Part shown: piece after piece, positions 17,234 through 23,000 of the stretch | Position numbering within the stretch: the first letter of the stretch is position 1 | Layout of the letters: each line of letters opens with the position of its first letter | Origin: Nesterenkonia lacusekhoensis | Lineage (GTDB): Bacteria; Actinomycetota; Actinomycetes; Actinomycetales; Micrococcaceae | Direction of reading: 5' to 3' | NCBI RefSeq assembly: GCF_017876395.1 | Contig: NZ_JAGINX010000001.1 | Span: forward strand, 1,984,001 to 2,048,000 | Length of the DNA stretch: 64,000 bases | Program-made: the position numbers and the translations under genes | Notes under the pieces: model-generated | What the model was told of the DNA's origin: nothing | Databases searched by the model: none | What the model saw: the letters and a program-made list of their open reading frames with translations, nothing else

Positions 17234-18016
17234 TCAGTCCGCCGCCGAGGTCAGCGACTCCAGCAGGTCTCGGCGCAGCCCGAGGTAATCCTCGCTGCAT
17301 TCCACTCCCTCACGGTCGCGGGGCCTGCCGAAGGGCAGCCGGATGTCCTGCTGGACCCGGGCCTCCGGACCGTGGGAGAGCACCAGGATACGGTCGGAGA
17401 GCATGAGCGCCTCGTCGACGTCGTGGGTCACCAGGACGAAGGTGCGCTTCTCCTGCTCCGAGAGGTGGAGAAGCTGCTGCTGCAGGGAGTGGCGGGTCAG
17501 CGCATCCAAAGCACCCAGCGGTTCATCCAGCAGAAGAACGTCGGGCTCCAGAGCGAAAGCCCGGGCGATGCCCACTCGCTGCTGCATACCGCCGGAGAGC
17601 TGACCGGGCTTCTTTTCCGCCGCTTCGGTGAGGTGGACCAGGTCCAACCACTTCTCAGCCAACTCCTCCGTCTGCGCGACACTGCGGCCGGAGCTCCCAT
17701 CGGCGGTGAGGGCGAAGATGACGTTCTGCTTGGCAGTCAGCCAAGGCAGCAGCACATGCTGCTGGAAGACGACGCCGAGCCGCCGGCTGGGCCCGGCGAT
17801 AGGTCGCCCCTCCAGGGAGACGCTGCCGGTGTCGGGCTGCTCCAAGCCTGCCAGCATCTTGAGCAGCGTGGATTTCCCCGAACCCGAAGGCCCGATGATG
17901 GTGACGAACTCCCCCTCCTCCACGGAGAAGGAGATCTCCCCCAGCACTGGCTGGAAGCCGCGCCTGCGGTGGGAGAACCCCTTGGTGACGGCGTCAATGG
18001 TCAGCTGTTCGGTCAT
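17234..18016 (-). CDS. ABC transporter ATP-binding protein, nitrate/sulfonate/taurine type
   Basis: 260 residues. Walker A GPSGSGKST, Q-loop VFQQHVLLPWLT, signature LSGGMQQRVGIARAFA, Walker B VLLLDEPLGALDALTR, switch His in LVTHDVDEALML. The PWLT and DALTR motifs are typical of SsuB/TauB/NrtD ATPases. Last gene of the five-gene operon, 18 bp after the permease. Confidence 0.93.
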   Translation of the reverse strand: MTEQLTIDAVTKGFSHRRRGFQPVLGEISFSVEEGEFVTIIGPSGSGKSTLLKMLAGLEQPDTGSVSLEGRPIAGPSRRLGVVFQQHVLLPWLTAKQNVIFALTADGSSGRSVAQTEELAEKWLDLVHLTEAAEKKPGQLSGGMQQRVGIARAFALEPDVLLLDEPLGALDALTRHSLQQQLLHLSEQEKRTFVLVTHDVDEALMLSDRILVLSHGPEARVQQDIRLPFGRPRDREGVECSEDYLGLRRDLLESLTSAAD

Positions 18017-18034
18017 GATGTGTCCTCTTATGCC

Positions 18035-18859
18035 TCAGGCATTGGGGGTCAGGCGGTGCAGCTGGGCGATGGACCTGTCCAGGACGAACCCGACGACGCC
18101 GATGATCAGGATGGCCACCACGATGCTGTTGACGTTCATCGCGTTCCACTCAATCCAGACGAATGTTCCCATCCCCCGACTGCCGACGATCATCTCCGCC
18201 GCCACGATCACCAGCCAGGCGGTGGAGAGTGCAGTCCGCAGACCGGTCACGACGCCGGGCAGCGCAGCCGGCAGCAGCACCTTCAGCGTCCGATTGGCCC
18301 AGGTGGCTTCCAGCGACCGGGCCAGGTCCAGATAGAGCGGGTTGACCCGCCGGACCCCGTCGATGGTGTTGATCAGGATCAGCCACAGTGAGGCCATGAA
18401 GATCACGAAGACCGCAGTCCATTCGGCGTCGCGCAGCACGGCCAGGCCGATGGGCAGCCAGGCCAATGGGGAGACAGGGCGCAGCACTTGGATGAAGGGG
18501 TCCAGGGAGTCGTTGATGACCCGACTGGTGCCCAGCAGCACGCCCAGCGGAATGGCGATCAGCGCGGCCAGGCCAAAGCCCAGCAGCACCCGTTGCAGAG
18601 AGGCCAGCAGGTGGAAGAAGATACCCACCTCATTGGGCGGATTGTGCACGAAGGCGGTGGAGAGCACCTCCACGAGGCGGTCCCAGCTGGCCGCCGGAGT
18701 GGGCGCCAGCCCACCGTCGTCGAATCCCGCAGTGACCAGCTGCCACAGCCCCAAGAAGACGACAGCGAAGGCAAGGAGAAGCCCCGCGGTCTTCAGCCGG
18801 TAGCCGGCTCGCTCCTTCGCGGCGCGTTGTTGAAGCACCTGCGGTGTCGATATGGTCAC
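18035..18859 (-). CDS. ABC transporter permease, nitrate/sulfonate/taurine type
   Basis: 274 residues, about six spans. The binding-protein-dependent inner-membrane motif lies in SLEATWANRTLKVLLPAALPGVVTGLRTALSTAWLVIVAAEM, with the EA...G/LP coupling loop, typical of SsuC/TauC. Its ATG overlaps the stop of the binding-protein gene (18856-18859), giving translational coupling. Confidence 0.93.
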   Translation of the reverse strand: MTISTPQVLQQRAAKERAGYRLKTAGLLLAFAVVFLGLWQLVTAGFDDGGLAPTPAASWDRLVEVLSTAFVHNPPNEVGIFFHLLASLQRVLLGFGLAALIAIPLGVLLGTSRVINDSLDPFIQVLRPVSPLAWLPIGLAVLRDAEWTAVFVIFMASLWLILINTIDGVRRVNPLYLDLARSLEATWANRTLKVLLPAALPGVVTGLRTALSTAWLVIVAAEMIVGSRGMGTFVWIEWNAMNVNSIVVAILIIGVVGFVLDRSIAQLHRLTPNA

Positions 18860-20112
18860 TGGGTCACCTGCTCATTCCACTCTGCGGGGTTCTGCGGGTC
18901 AAAGGTCTCACCCAGGACGGTCTCCGCGGCCCGTTCCTCAGTCACGCCGCCCAGCTCTTCGAGCACCTCGTGGGCGGCCTCCGCGTCGAAGACCGCTTCG
19001 ACGGCGGCGGAGTAGTCCTCCGCGGTGCTGAAGCTCTGATCCCCGGTCAGGCCCCAGCGCTGCATGGCATCCACCATCCAGACGCCGTAGGACTCATGCG
19101 GGTAGGGCTGGAAGCCGATGCGGTCCGGCACCGAGCGCTGCTGACCGGTGCCGTCGGGGAACTCACCGGTCAGTACGGCGGTCAGCACCGGCTCGGGAAG
19201 TCCCAGATAAGCCGGCTGGGCCATCAGAGAGGCGGTGTCGGCCCGGTGGTCCGGGTCATCGATGTAGAGGGCGGAGTCCCCGATCGCGCGCAGCAGGGCG
19301 GTGTAGGTGTTCGGGTTGGCCGCCGCGAAATCATCGGCCACGGCGAAGCTGCAGCAGGGATGATCCCCCCAGAGGTCCTTGGTGAGGGTATGGATGAACC
19401 CGGCACCTTCGGCCACGGCCCGCTGGTTGAACTGGTCCGGCAGGCAGAAGGCATCGATCTGGCCCACGGAGAGCGCGGTGACCATATCCGCCGGGCGCAT
19501 GATGCGCAGGTCCACGTCCTCATCCGGGTTCAGCCCGCCGGAAGCCAGATAGTCCCGGGACAGCAGGTTGTGCACCGAGTAGTCGAAGGGCAGCCCCAGG
19601 CGCAGCCCGGCGAAGTCTTCGGGTCCCTCCACTTGGCCCTGCAGCTCCTGGGAGACGCTGATGCCGTTGCCGTTGATGTTGGTGACATAGGGCAGCCGGG
19701 TGTCGCGCTGGCCGTCGGCGAATCCGTGATGGATGGCCAACGGCATAGGCGCCAGGAACTGCGTAGCGTCCAGCTCACCGGCAACATAGGCGATCCACAG
19801 CTCCGCCCAGCCGGTGAACCGGCGCAGCGTGACGTTGAGCCCGTAGTGCTCGTAGATGCGCAACGCCGCGGCGTTGACGATCGGTGAGGAGCAGGTGATC
19901 GGCACGAAGCCGATGGTGATGTCACGCTGCTCCAGACCGTCGGGCGCCGGCAGCGCGGGCTCGAACTCGGGCGCGTGCACGGCGGAGCTGCTCCCCGCCC
20001 GCCCACAGGCGGCCAACAGGGCGGCGGCCGACGCGCCGGCACCCAGACCGACCAAACGGCGTCGTGTCAGCGCGCGGACCGAGGGCACGGCCGCAGCCGA
20101 ACTCCTGTGCAT
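18856..20112 (-). CDS. Substrate-binding lipoprotein, CmpA/NrtA-like
   Basis: 418 residues. The N-terminus has a twin-arginine stretch (TRRRLVG) and lipobox LLAAC with Cys36, so it is probably a Tat- or Sec-exported lipoprotein. The body follows the NrtA/CmpA layout: DITIGFVPITCSSPIVNAAA, MRPADMVTALSVGQIDAFCLPDQFN, DDPDHR, and a late PYPHESYGVWMVDAMQRWG. Known relatives bind nitrate, bicarbonate, sulfonates or pyrimidine precursors. The operon partners (OsmC, acyl-CoA dehydrogenase-like) favour an organic substrate here, by inference. Confidence 0.9.
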   Translation of the reverse strand: MHRSSAAAVPSVRALTRRRLVGLGAGASAAALLAACGRAGSSSAVHAPEFEPALPAPDGLEQRDITIGFVPITCSSPIVNAAALRIYEHYGLNVTLRRFTGWAELWIAYVAGELDATQFLAPMPLAIHHGFADGQRDTRLPYVTNINGNGISVSQELQGQVEGPEDFAGLRLGLPFDYSVHNLLSRDYLASGGLNPDEDVDLRIMRPADMVTALSVGQIDAFCLPDQFNQRAVAEGAGFIHTLTKDLWGDHPCCSFAVADDFAAANPNTYTALLRAIGDSALYIDDPDHRADTASLMAQPAYLGLPEPVLTAVLTGEFPDGTGQQRSVPDRIGFQPYPHESYGVWMVDAMQRWGLTGDQSFSTAEDYSAAVEAVFDAEAAHEVLEELGGVTEERAAETVLGETFDPQNPAEWNEQVTQ

Positions 20113-20120
20113 GACAGCGC

Positions 20121-21224
20121 CTACTTCCCCTCGGCCAGCTCCCAGCGCAGCTGTGCCTCCGAGGGCGACTGCACGGGGATGAAGGTGGCCTCGCGGAAGC
20201 GGCGGTTGGGGGCCGAGTCGGCGATGAAGCCCTTGCCGCCGGCAGTCTTGACTTCCAGCGTGGCCAGGGCGACGGCCAGCCGACCGGCCTCCAGGCGCAG
20301 GGCCAGCACGTCGCGGCGACCCGGCGGCTCCTCACCCGCCACGCGTACGGCGAAGTCGGCCAGCTGCTCCTTGGCCGCGCCGAGGTCATGACCGAGCTGC
20401 ATGAAGTCTTCCTCGAAGACTTCATTGAGCCCGGGCAGATTGGCGCGCGCCTGACGGAAGCTCTCCGTGGCCAGGCCCAGGCAGAAGCTGGACTGCAGCA
20501 CCGCGAAGGTGGGCCGGCAGCGGCCCATGAACTCGTCGAAGTCCTCGGTCAGGATCTGCTGGGACTCCAGGCGCAGGCCCTCGACCTTCACAGAGGTGGA
20601 GGTGGTCCCCTGCAGGGCCAACAGATTCAGGTCTCGACCGACCTCCACGCCCTCATCGGAGATCCGGAAGGCGAGGATGAGCTTCTTGCGCTCCCCCGCG
20701 GCGTCGAGGTCATCGGCGGGCCCGTAGGCGGCCGAGAGCACGACGGCATCGGGGTACAGGTTGGACGCCCAGGGCAGGCGCCCGGAGAGGGTGAGCCCGC
20801 CGTCTTCAGCCCGGTCCACGGTGAGATCCAGCGATCCGGCCCCGGCGTAGGTCTTGAAGGCAGAGGCCATTCCGGAGACGCCGGGGACCTCACCGGTGCG
20901 CAGCTGAGCCAACAGCCCCTCGGCGTACTCGCCGCCGGCGGCCGCCAGGTACTCGATGCTCATCCGGTGACCCCACAAGGCGAAGGCGGTGGAGAGCGAA
21001 CGCTCCGCCAGCGCCTCCACCACAGCGGCCTGGCGCAGCAGCTCACCGCCTGTGTTCGCCGGAGCGCCCAGATCGATCAGACCCGCGGCGGCCAACGCCG
21101 GGAAAACCTCACGCGGATGGGCTTCCCCGGCATCTACGGCCGCGGCGGCCGCGCTGACCCGGGTCAGCAGCTCATGCGGGATCCCGGCCTCAACCAGCGG
21201 GTTCTCAGCCGCGGTGACGCTCAT
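20121..21224 (-). CDS. Acyl-CoA dehydrogenase-like flavoprotein (possible SfnB/DszC-type monooxygenase)
   Basis: 367 residues from the ATG at 21224, which overlaps the OsmC stop by 4 bp. The acyl-CoA dehydrogenase fold is recognisable: N-terminal helices, a middle beta domain (GLTLSGRLPWASNLYPDAVVLSA) and a C-terminal helical bundle. The usual catalytic Glu region is not obvious, and there is no CoA pathway gene in the operon. Members of this fold beside sulfonate-type transporters include flavin monooxygenases for sulfones, thiophenes and amines. A genuine dehydrogenase cannot be excluded. Confidence 0.8.
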   Translation of the reverse strand: MSVTAAENPLVEAGIPHELLTRVSAAAAAVDAGEAHPREVFPALAAAGLIDLGAPANTGGELLRQAAVVEALAERSLSTAFALWGHRMSIEYLAAAGGEYAEGLLAQLRTGEVPGVSGMASAFKTYAGAGSLDLTVDRAEDGGLTLSGRLPWASNLYPDAVVLSAAYGPADDLDAAGERKKLILAFRISDEGVEVGRDLNLLALQGTTSTSVKVEGLRLESQQILTEDFDEFMGRCRPTFAVLQSSFCLGLATESFRQARANLPGLNEVFEEDFMQLGHDLGAAKEQLADFAVRVAGEEPPGRRDVLALRLEAGRLAVALATLEVKTAGGKGFIADSAPNRRFREATFIPVQSPSEAQLRWELAEGK

Positions 21225-21760
21225 CCGCCCACGGCCAGGGTGGACTCGTAGCTGGCCGGACGGGTGAAGGTGTTCAGCACCGGGGACCACTTGAGTGCGG
21301 AATCGGTGATCTCCTGCAGTGTGGCCTGATCGGCGTCGCCGTCGAGGTTCACGTTGATGCGCAGGTGGGACACACCCAGGCGCTTGTCCTCGTCGAGGTC
21401 GCCCACACCCCAGGTGGCGGAGATGTCGATGTCGCCCTCCACGTCCACCTCGATCTTCGAGAGCGTGACGCCGCGCTTGGTGGCGTTGGCCATCAGGCCC
21501 ACGGAGATGCAGGAGCCCACAGCCCCCAGGGCGATCTCAGTGGGGTTGGGAGCCTCGTCGTCGCCGAGCAGCTTGTGAGGCTCGGAGATCAGGAAGGGCT
21601 GGTGATCCCGGACGTAGTTCTGGTTGCGGAAGCCTGACTCGCAGACGGTCTTGGCCTTGACGACCTTGTGGCCGTGCTCGGGCTTCTCGATGTTCTTGGC
21701 AGCGAGATTCTCGAGACCCTCGGCGTCGATACCGCCGAGCGAGGCGTTCTCAGTAGACAT
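21221..21760 (-). CDS. OsmC/Ohr family protein
   Basis: 179 residues from the ATG at 21760, with GGAGGAG upstream. OsmC fold with PNPTEIALGAVGSCISVGLMANATKRGVTLSKIEVDVEGDID around the helix that carries the second peroxidatic cysteine; an earlier Cys occurs in KTVCESGF. Members reduce organic hydroperoxides. First gene of the operon OsmC, acyl-CoA dehydrogenase-like, binding protein, permease, ATPase, with overlaps or gaps of 18 bp or less throughout. Confidence 0.88.
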   Translation of the reverse strand: MSTENASLGGIDAEGLENLAAKNIEKPEHGHKVVKAKTVCESGFRNQNYVRDHQPFLISEPHKLLGDDEAPNPTEIALGAVGSCISVGLMANATKRGVTLSKIEVDVEGDIDISATWGVGDLDEDKRLGVSHLRINVNLDGDADQATLQEITDSALKWSPVLNTFTRPASYESTLAVGG

Positions 21761-21893: not shown

Positions 21894-23000
21894 TCAGGAG
21901 AAGCTGAGGAGTCTGCCCGGAACCGGGACGAAGTAGTGGTCGATCAGCTCCTCGTCCGCCTCCTCCAGCGTGGCCGGCTGCCACTGCGGGTCACGATCCT
22001 TGTCCACCAGCTGCGCCCTGATCCCCTCACGGAAGTCGTGCGAGCGCAGCGCGTGGACTCCGATGGTGTACTCCTGCATCAGGGCGCCTTCCAGACTCAG
22101 CTCAGCGGCACCGCGGATGGAACGCAGGGCCAGCTTCAGCGAGGTCGGCGACTTCGTCCGCAGCGTGTCCGCAGCCTCAGCAGCCGCAGGGATGTCAGCA
22201 CCGAACTCGTCCAGACGAGCCAGGATCTGTTCGAAAGTGACGCCGGAATAGGCCTGCTCGATCCAGGGAGCGGCCTCAGCCAAGGCCGACTGCTCGGGCT
22301 CCACCACAAAACGCGGCAGAGCCTGCTCCACCGGTTCCTCAGAGAGCACCTGAATCAGCTCGTCCATCGATTCGGAAGCGATCTGCGCATCAGCAAGGCC
22401 CAGGGCGCGCGCATCGGCAGCATCGAGATGAGCCCCGGTCAGCCCGGCGTGCAGGCCGAGATTCTGCGGGGCACGGGCGAGCAGATAGCTCCCGCCGACG
22501 TCCGGGGCGAATCCGATGGTGGTCTCCGGCATTCCGGCACGGGTCCGCTCGGTGACCAGACGGTGGGAACCATGCGCGGAGATGCCGATGCCCCCGCCCA
22601 GGACCAGTCCATCCATCAGGGCGATATAGGGCTTGGGGTAGGCGGCGATATAGCGATTCATCGCGTACTCCACGGAGAAGAACCGCTCGCCGGCGAAGTC
22701 AGCCTGATAGGCCGGGGTGCCCTCAGGCAGCAGAGCCCCTCCATCCTGAGGCTGCTTCTCCACCATGTCGTGATAGACCCCGACGACGTCACCTCCAGCA
22801 CAGAGTCCGCGGTCCCCCGCCCCTCGGACGAGGACCTGCAGGACGTCGTCGTCCTCAGCCCACTCCTGAAGTTGGATCAGGACCGACTCACACATCAGCT
22901 CCGTCAGCGAGTTGACAGCCTTGGGCCGGTTCAGCGTGATGATCCCCAAGCGGCCGCGGTGTTCGAAGGCCACATCGCCTGCGAAAGTCTCTTTTCCCAT
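21894..23000 (-). CDS. 3-hydroxyisobutyryl-CoA hydrolase / enoyl-CoA hydratase family
   Basis: 368 residues. Crotonase fold: GRLGIITLNRPKAVNSL, oxyanion-hole segments DRGLCAGGDVVG and LVLGGGIGISAHGSHRL, and catalytic Glu in AGMPETTIGFAPDVGGSYLLAR. The length and ETTIGF...DVG pattern fit HIBCH of valine catabolism better than a short enoyl-CoA hydratase. That agrees with the BCKDH operon 3 kb away. The start lies seven bases after TAACGT, so it is probably leaderless. Confidence 0.9.
   Translation of the reverse strand: MGKETFAGDVAFEHRGRLGIITLNRPKAVNSLTELMCESVLIQLQEWAEDDDVLQVLVRGAGDRGLCAGGDVVGVYHDMVEKQPQDGGALLPEGTPAYQADFAGERFFSVEYAMNRYIAAYPKPYIALMDGLVLGGGIGISAHGSHRLVTERTRAGMPETTIGFAPDVGGSYLLARAPQNLGLHAGLTGAHLDAADARALGLADAQIASESMDELIQVLSEEPVEQALPRFVVEPEQSALAEAAPWIEQAYSGVTFEQILARLDEFGADIPAAAEAADTLRTKSPTSLKLALRSIRGAAELSLEGALMQEYTIGVHALRSHDFREGIRAQLVDKDRDPQWQPATLEEADEELIDHYFVPVPGRLLSFS

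Follow-up and report, generated by a model that had tools for sequence, protein, structure and literature searches.

What does an importer of the NitT/TauT type carry when its genes are joined to those for a flavoprotein of the acyl-CoA dehydrogenase (ACAD) fold and an OsmC-family protein? The question is raised by a five-gene operon at positions 17234-21760, minus strand, of a 64,000-nucleotide window (the whole stretch of DNA analysed) from the 2.74 Mb genome of Nesterenkonia lacusekhoensis. A first-pass annotation had proposed import of a small organosulfur or organonitrogen compound, its flavin-dependent oxygenation and removal of peroxide by OsmC. The flavin chemistry stands in outline, close to what comparison with related loci suggests. 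The substrate can be sharpened to an inorganic anion, most likely thiocyanate, because of cyanase genes in the operons of relatives, the sulfur-gene surroundings of the copy on plasmid pANL of Synechococcus elongatus and the rhodanese neighbours of other copies. Judged from sequence, the operon may serve to take up thiocyanate and to oxidise it, in a flavin-dependent reaction, to cyanate and sulfur that the cell can use, a reading to which we give about even weight.

Gene content, order and distribution

The genes lie in one block, as follows:

21221-21760, minus strand: OsmC-family protein, 179 aa (PF02566, 66 bits)
20121-21224, minus strand: ACAD-fold flavoprotein, 367 aa, the proposed flavin-dependent oxygenase
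18856-20112, minus strand: NitT/TauT (NrtA/CmpA-type) substrate-binding protein, lipoprotein-like (PF13379, 212 bits)
18035-18859, minus strand: ABC permease, NitT/TauT type (PF00528; TIGR01183 ntrB 197.5 bits, just below the cut-off of 209.05)
17234-18016, minus strand: ABC ATPase, NitT/TauT type (PF00005; TIGR01184 ntrCD 261.5 bits, below the cut-off of 291.8)

From OsmC to the ATPase, the first and third junctions are overlaps of 4 bp, and the second and fourth are gaps of 8 bp and 18 bp, in agreement with the tight packing reported earlier. ACAD and the OsmC stop overlap in ATGA, whose ATG is the ACAD start and yields a protein of 367 aa; a mechanical listing of open reading frames has a longer GTG-start version, and the ACAD searches used a 365-aa form from 21218 as query. 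This set of five genes, likewise ordered, is found in Nesterenkonia cremea, N. sphaerica, N. massiliensis, a Nesterenkonia metagenome-assembled genome and a Brevibacterium (loci L002-L006), and OsmC-ACAD or ACAD-ABC pairs recur across phyla. Conservation of the neighbourhood, earlier named as a check, is thus borne out and shows that the gene order is not due to chance. The closest named relative found is N. cremea, whose ACAD is 98% identical to that of the window.

Genomes with a member of the ACAD family number 5 of 296 in the phylum, 15 of 297 in the order and, at a stricter cut-off, 13 of 345 in the class, the own genome included in each count. Another genome of the same genus (G359) has none. 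The spread is patchy, as for an accessory pathway. The module extends to Cyanobacteria, Proteobacteria, Deinococcus and Thermomicrobium, and is also carried on plasmids (records examined: 9 of 53 ACAD matches, 2 of 21 matches to the Agrobacterium copy, 7 of 113 OsmC matches and 2 of 100 cyanase matches; none of the 21 plasmid records matching the Synechococcus copy was examined as a match, pANL being taken by accession).

Neighbours were scored by tblastn at E 1e-5 in the 6.5 kb around ACAD, a search that diverged genes and genes past contig ends can escape, in 84 distinct loci. These derive from 87 tallied, after one without ACAD (L111) was dropped, L069, L119 and L116 were removed as duplicates of L006, L008 and L043, and L139 was added. 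The slot before ACAD holds OsmC in 50 loci, a DUF4242 protein (PF14026) in 23 and a carboxymuconolactone-decarboxylase-like (CMD) protein (PF02627) in seven, with no partner found in four (L080, L081, L117, L121). An NrtA/CmpA-like binding protein is nearby in 42 loci, a formate/nitrite transporter family (FNT) channel in 33, and neither in nine. Most mycobacterial OsmC-type loci comprise OsmC, a cyanase gene in about half, and then ACAD, the gene for an ECF sigma factor, a further small gene and FNT. In Acetobacter (L112) and Caballeronia (L139), a single cluster combines OsmC, ACAD, a rubredoxin-type NADH reductase, ABC genes and cyanase; Marinobacter (L113) has the same genes as the Acetobacter cluster, with the ABC genes across a regulator. 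In two Rhodobacterales (L108, L109), ABC genes, OsmC and ACAD are followed by a rhodanese gene.

Linkage to cyanase

Cyanase lies within 6.5 kb of ACAD in 21 of the 50 OsmC-type loci, in several lineages and at differing positions. Eighteen of these loci are mycobacterial, most with the order OsmC-cynS-ACAD; the others are those of Acetobacter, Marinobacter and Caballeronia, where cynS follows the reductase or ABC genes. Any cyanase is found in 18 of 296 genomes of the phylum sample. Five of 19 ACAD-positive genomes carry one, as against 15 of 291 ACAD-negative genomes (Fisher p 0.004, not corrected for relatedness). Some carriers of the module have a cyanase elsewhere: S. elongatus gave a cyanase match, and on module-bearing plasmids cyanase occurs far from the module in SC52, Burkholderia stagnalis, Paraburkholderia caribensis MBA4 and two Pseudonocardia. 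In addition, a Moraxella osloensis plasmid (L140:3508-8450) has nirBD, an FNT channel and cyanase adjoining, an FNT-cyanase pair without ACAD.

Reductases and sulfur genes

An HpaC/HsaB-like flavin reductase is encoded in the operon of L015 and L065, and is fused to FNT in L070. A rubredoxin fused to NADH reductase is present in L112 and L113, with homologues in L139 and, without rubredoxin, in L109. The own genome carries two flavin reductases outside the operon and sulfite reductase-type genes near 2.06 Mb with a rhodanese gene beside them. It could therefore use thiocyanate sulfur and make reduced flavin. A role here as a sulfur source is more likely than one as a nitrogen source, since the genome contains no cyanase.

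The pANL module, of the DUF4242 kind, is preceded by cysK and a gamma-glutamyltransferase gene, and its start is about 11 kb away from srpI; the surroundings of the module include two cysK genes, serine acetyltransferase and the SrpI encapsulin with its cysteine desulfurase. In S. elongatus PCC 7942, a cysR mutant reportedly fails to grow on thiocyanate (Laudenbach and Grossman 1991; Nicholson and Laudenbach 1995), a result not counted as evidence here. Sulfur starvation raises srpI (PMC8049743). On a Pseudonocardia plasmid (L100:701-13559), the module is flanked on one side by a DmoA/NtaA-type monooxygenase and a second ABC transporter, and on the other by an LLM enzyme and a rhodanese, a region that looks like a sulfur-acquisition island.

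The flavoprotein

The protein encoded at 20121-21224 has the ACAD fold and is joined to a NitT/TauT importer, as the first-pass annotation had it. Its identity to the solved enzymes listed is 13-21%. The catalytic glutamate of these enzymes occupies one of two positions, of SCAD/MCAD or of IVD type, which were mapped by sequence alignment, not coordinates; neither holds Glu in any of 23 family members. In all 23, positions 349-352 and 238 are free of Glu and Asp, and in the HMMER alignment Q350 aligns with the Tyr preceding the SCAD catalytic Glu. The loss of both glutamates, together with the flavin reductases of L015, L065 and L070, upholds the earlier view that this is not an ordinary acyl-CoA dehydrogenase.

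The HpaB/HsaA/DszC/SfnB-type two-component monooxygenases share the ACAD fold, and three module relatives have a flavin reductase of the HpaC/HsaB type; the conserved motifs of the window ACAD are distinct from theirs, and it gives no Pfam or NCBIfam match to these monooxygenase groups. Nitrososynthase DnmZ and 3-sulfinopropionyl-CoA desulfinase are among the listed fold matches and were given no evidential weight. No history is claimed from the ACAD tree, in which 14 of 21 inner branches are open and long branches are flagged. In Mycobacterium lepraemurium (L044:7956-9316), ACAD and the ECF sigma gene are each split into two tblastn matches and look broken.

Transport

An NMT1_2-type binding protein, a BPD permease and an ATPase place the importer in the NitT/TauT (NrtA/CmpA/SsuA) group, with both ntrB and ntrCD scores short of the curated NCBIfam cut-offs for the nitrate importer NrtABCD. 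The binding protein, whose leader reads as twin-arginine/lipoprotein-like, matches CmpA (2i48) at E 9e-32 and NrtA (2g29) at 1e-30. Overall, E values against NrtC, CmpC, CmpA and NrtA range from 1e-30 to 1e-43, compared with 2e-5 for taurine-binding proteins, and the match to the SsuA/TauA-like family TIGR01728 is 62.9 bits (cut-off 163.5). An HPCC motif (C253, C254) is present in 15 of 15 binding-protein relatives from modules of the OsmC, DUF4242 and CMD kinds, a count that excludes the second binding protein of the Pseudonocardia locus, which does not have it. NrtC and CmpC carry QPKK or HPGK at this place, NrtA and CmpA being outside that comparison. Since it is common to all kinds, the motif speaks for a single substrate across the family.

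Two fused arrangements were seen among the transport genes. In the DUF4242-type modules of L077:8113-10044, L078:8106-10034 and L079:8053-9960, an ABC ATPase and an NMT1_2 binding domain share a single frame, which recalls the layout of NrtC and puts the membrane side of the binding domain in question. In L070:5546-7087, next to OsmC-ACAD, the flavin reductase domain is fused to the formate/nitrite channel, which pairs a soluble reductase with a channel in an unusual way.

The OsmC partner

The first cysteine of OsmC is invariant in 49 of 49 locus matches (some from duplicate loci), and C84 is kept in eight of eight relatives across phyla. OsmC/Ohr peroxidases work by a two-cysteine mechanism (PMC5157978). 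The window protein shares with these thiol peroxidases the fold family and the first cysteine; where they have the second cysteine, it has Ser (S159), as do all eight aligned relatives. Moreover, in other clades DUF4242 or CMD proteins take the place of OsmC. The peroxidase role was rejected on the absence of the second cysteine, and the peroxide removal assigned to OsmC by the first-pass annotation is probably wrong. The best NCBIfam match is NF041052, an OsmC-related (seleno)protein, at 47.5 bits, below the cut-off of 95, and the sole solved structure matched by sequence is 2opl, which shares an SPV.NT stretch. Distant relatives of this OsmC can also stand among different genes, as in Pantoea L138 (31.5% identity).

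A possible thiocyanate pathway

Substrate, flavin chemistry, products and the role of OsmC are what we infer from this body of comparisons. A small-anion importer or channel, a flavin oxygenase with a reductase, cyanase and a sulfur-handling protein together call for a small sulfur-containing anion that yields cyanate, which is why thiocyanate fits. The NitT/TauT importer, or the FNT channel of relatives, would bring in the small monovalent anion SCN-. A flavin reductase or rubredoxin-NADH reductase would supply the ACAD-fold protein with reduced flavin, and this protein may oxygenate the sulfur of thiocyanate, so that cyanate is formed along with sulfur in an oxidised or sulfane state. The single-cysteine OsmC, elsewhere the DUF4242 or CMD protein, would most likely accept or relay sulfur or a reactive intermediate, a function other than peroxide removal. 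Cyanate would pass to cyanase where present, and otherwise be slowly hydrolysed or exported; the sulfur would go to sulfite reductase or to rhodaneses, both of which are encoded in this genome.

Several observations weigh against this pathway. Cyanase (PF02560) has no match in the own genome, in a search whose control matched only in S. elongatus, and no cyanase lies within 6.5 kb in the 23 DUF4242, seven CMD and four partnerless loci. Of the five cyanases in ACAD-positive genomes, only that of G150 sits in the cluster and four are unlinked, while the mycobacterial loci belong to related species and count as few events. Cyanase also accompanies the carbonyl sulfide pathway, as PMC5328954 warns, and so does not by itself prove a cyanate route; the module could yield another first product. 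Of the 84 loci, only 7 include a flavin or rubredoxin-NADH reductase in the cluster, and none is in the window. The best fold matches of the ACAD are ordinary acyl-CoA dehydrogenases, with no monooxygenase singled out. The binding protein could carry an anion other than thiocyanate, the HPCC ligand being putative, and a sulfur response of the pANL module itself was not found in any source. Our confidence is held at the midpoint by the cyanase absences, the few in-cluster reductases, the unlinked cyanases, a p value blind to relatedness and the few events behind the mycobacterial loci.

Alternative explanations

The best-surviving alternative, which we consider unlikely, is organosulfur scavenging, in which a small sulfonate, sulfinate or similar compound is imported and then cleaved or oxygenated at its C-S bond by the flavoprotein, cyanase being an unrelated companion in some lineages. 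The model would be the DszC, SfnB and SsuD systems, in which C-S bonds are cleaved or oxygenated for sulfur. Membership of the binding protein in the wider SsuA/TauA-like family, below cut-off, is in keeping with this, as are the sulfur genes on pANL, the rhodaneses, and the DmoA/NtaA-type monooxygenase, second ABC transporter and rhodanese near the Pseudonocardia copy. However, the binding protein is far nearer to NrtC, CmpC, CmpA and NrtA than to the taurine-binding proteins, and neither operon cyanase nor FNT channels would be expected for sulfonates.

The linkage to cyanase could also be read as metabolism of cyanide or cyanate, the flavoprotein oxidising cyanide to cyanate or the module handling cyanate import. 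PMC6627978 describes a CynABD ABC-type cyanate importer encoded next to cynS, together with a sigma-54-dependent regulator, and sigma-54-interacting regulators adjoin the module in L113 and L139. Nevertheless, HCN needs no importer to cross membranes, cyanate requires neither an oxygenase nor OsmC, and many copies, that of the window included, have no cyanase nearby, all of which makes this explanation improbable.

The FNT channels near ACAD in 33 of the 84 loci would be accounted for if an ACAD-fold oxidase freed nitrite, FNT exported it and OsmC removed the hydrogen peroxide, after the manner of nitroalkane oxidase, an enzyme of the same fold. This is very improbable, since the aligned position of the catalytic acid is Ser, Ala or Thr in 23 of 23 members, OsmC has no second cysteine, and cyanase and flavin reductase are left unexplained. 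An ordinary acyl-CoA dehydrogenase placed beside an importer by chance is, finally, discounted almost entirely by the unfilled glutamate positions, the low identity to solved enzymes and the presence of an anion transporter nearby in 75 of 84 loci.

Comparison with known systems

Thiocyanate hydrolase is a cobalt enzyme and a relative of nitrile hydratase, whereas the window enzyme is an ACAD-fold flavoprotein. Thiocyanate hydrolase clusters in the literature include a NitT/TauT importer, and the scnABC cluster (carbonyl sulfide pathway) of Thiobacillus thioparus also has cyanase (PMC5328954), so that importer and cyanase stand beside a thiocyanate enzyme as in the module. The nitrile hydratase alpha domain (PF02979) had no match in the own genome, nor in any control genome. 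A Rhizobium AB2/73 plasmid (L111:2893-4249) carries a three-chain nitrile hydratase/thiocyanate hydrolase-like set with a CbtAB pair and an OsmC 38-40% identical to that of the window. Its alpha-like chain scores 249.9 bits as nitrile hydratase alpha (cut-off 249.85) and 222.1 as thiocyanate hydrolase gamma (cut-off 291.45); the set may be a three-chain nitrile hydratase, and its candidacy as scnABC was left unused.

The thiocyanate dehydrogenase (TcDH, cyanate pathway) of Thioalkalivibrio has ABC genes nearby, and its products, cyanate and oxidised sulfur, are those proposed here. It contains copper and carries a Tat signal (PMC5328954). The window enzyme is a flavoprotein without leader. The cynABDS genes of P. 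pseudoalcaligenes combine an ABC importer with cynS and have a sigma-54-type regulator, as in some module loci (PMC6627978 for cynABDS); they include neither OsmC nor ACAD, and the genome of the window has no cyanase. No account of the OsmC-ACAD-importer module was found in the open-licence literature searched, where long match lists were covered at their top entries, in keeping with the first-pass view of the operon as unusual and undescribed.

Surroundings of the operon

A 3-hydroxyisobutyryl-CoA hydrolase gene (window 21894-23000, same strand) ends 133 bp upstream of OsmC; in L003 its place is occupied by an aldo/keto reductase gene. Inspection by eye of six loci revealed no shared upstream operator beyond the ribosome-binding stretch.

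Implications

PMC5328954 lists heterotrophs of five genera that use thiocyanate as a nitrogen source for growth, and the enzymatic routes it gives are just two, one hydrolytic through thiocyanate hydrolase and one oxidative through copper TcDH. Tentatively, and as something possible rather than probable, the module may represent a widespread third kind of thiocyanate-breaking system, spanning Actinobacteria, Cyanobacteria, Proteobacteria, Deinococcus and Thermomicrobium. In such a flavin-dependent system, an ACAD-fold oxygenase would activate SCN-, the OsmC, DUF4242 or CMD protein would accept the sulfur, perhaps as persulfide, and cyanate would leave to cyanase. If true, this route across several phyla would be the third for thiocyanate, and would assign a role to many proteins that at present bear the names 'acyl-CoA dehydrogenase' and 'OsmC'. 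It would also explain a gene block on the plasmid of a model cyanobacterium, and would be relevant to the removal of thiocyanate from mining waste and to bacteria living where hosts secrete thiocyanate.

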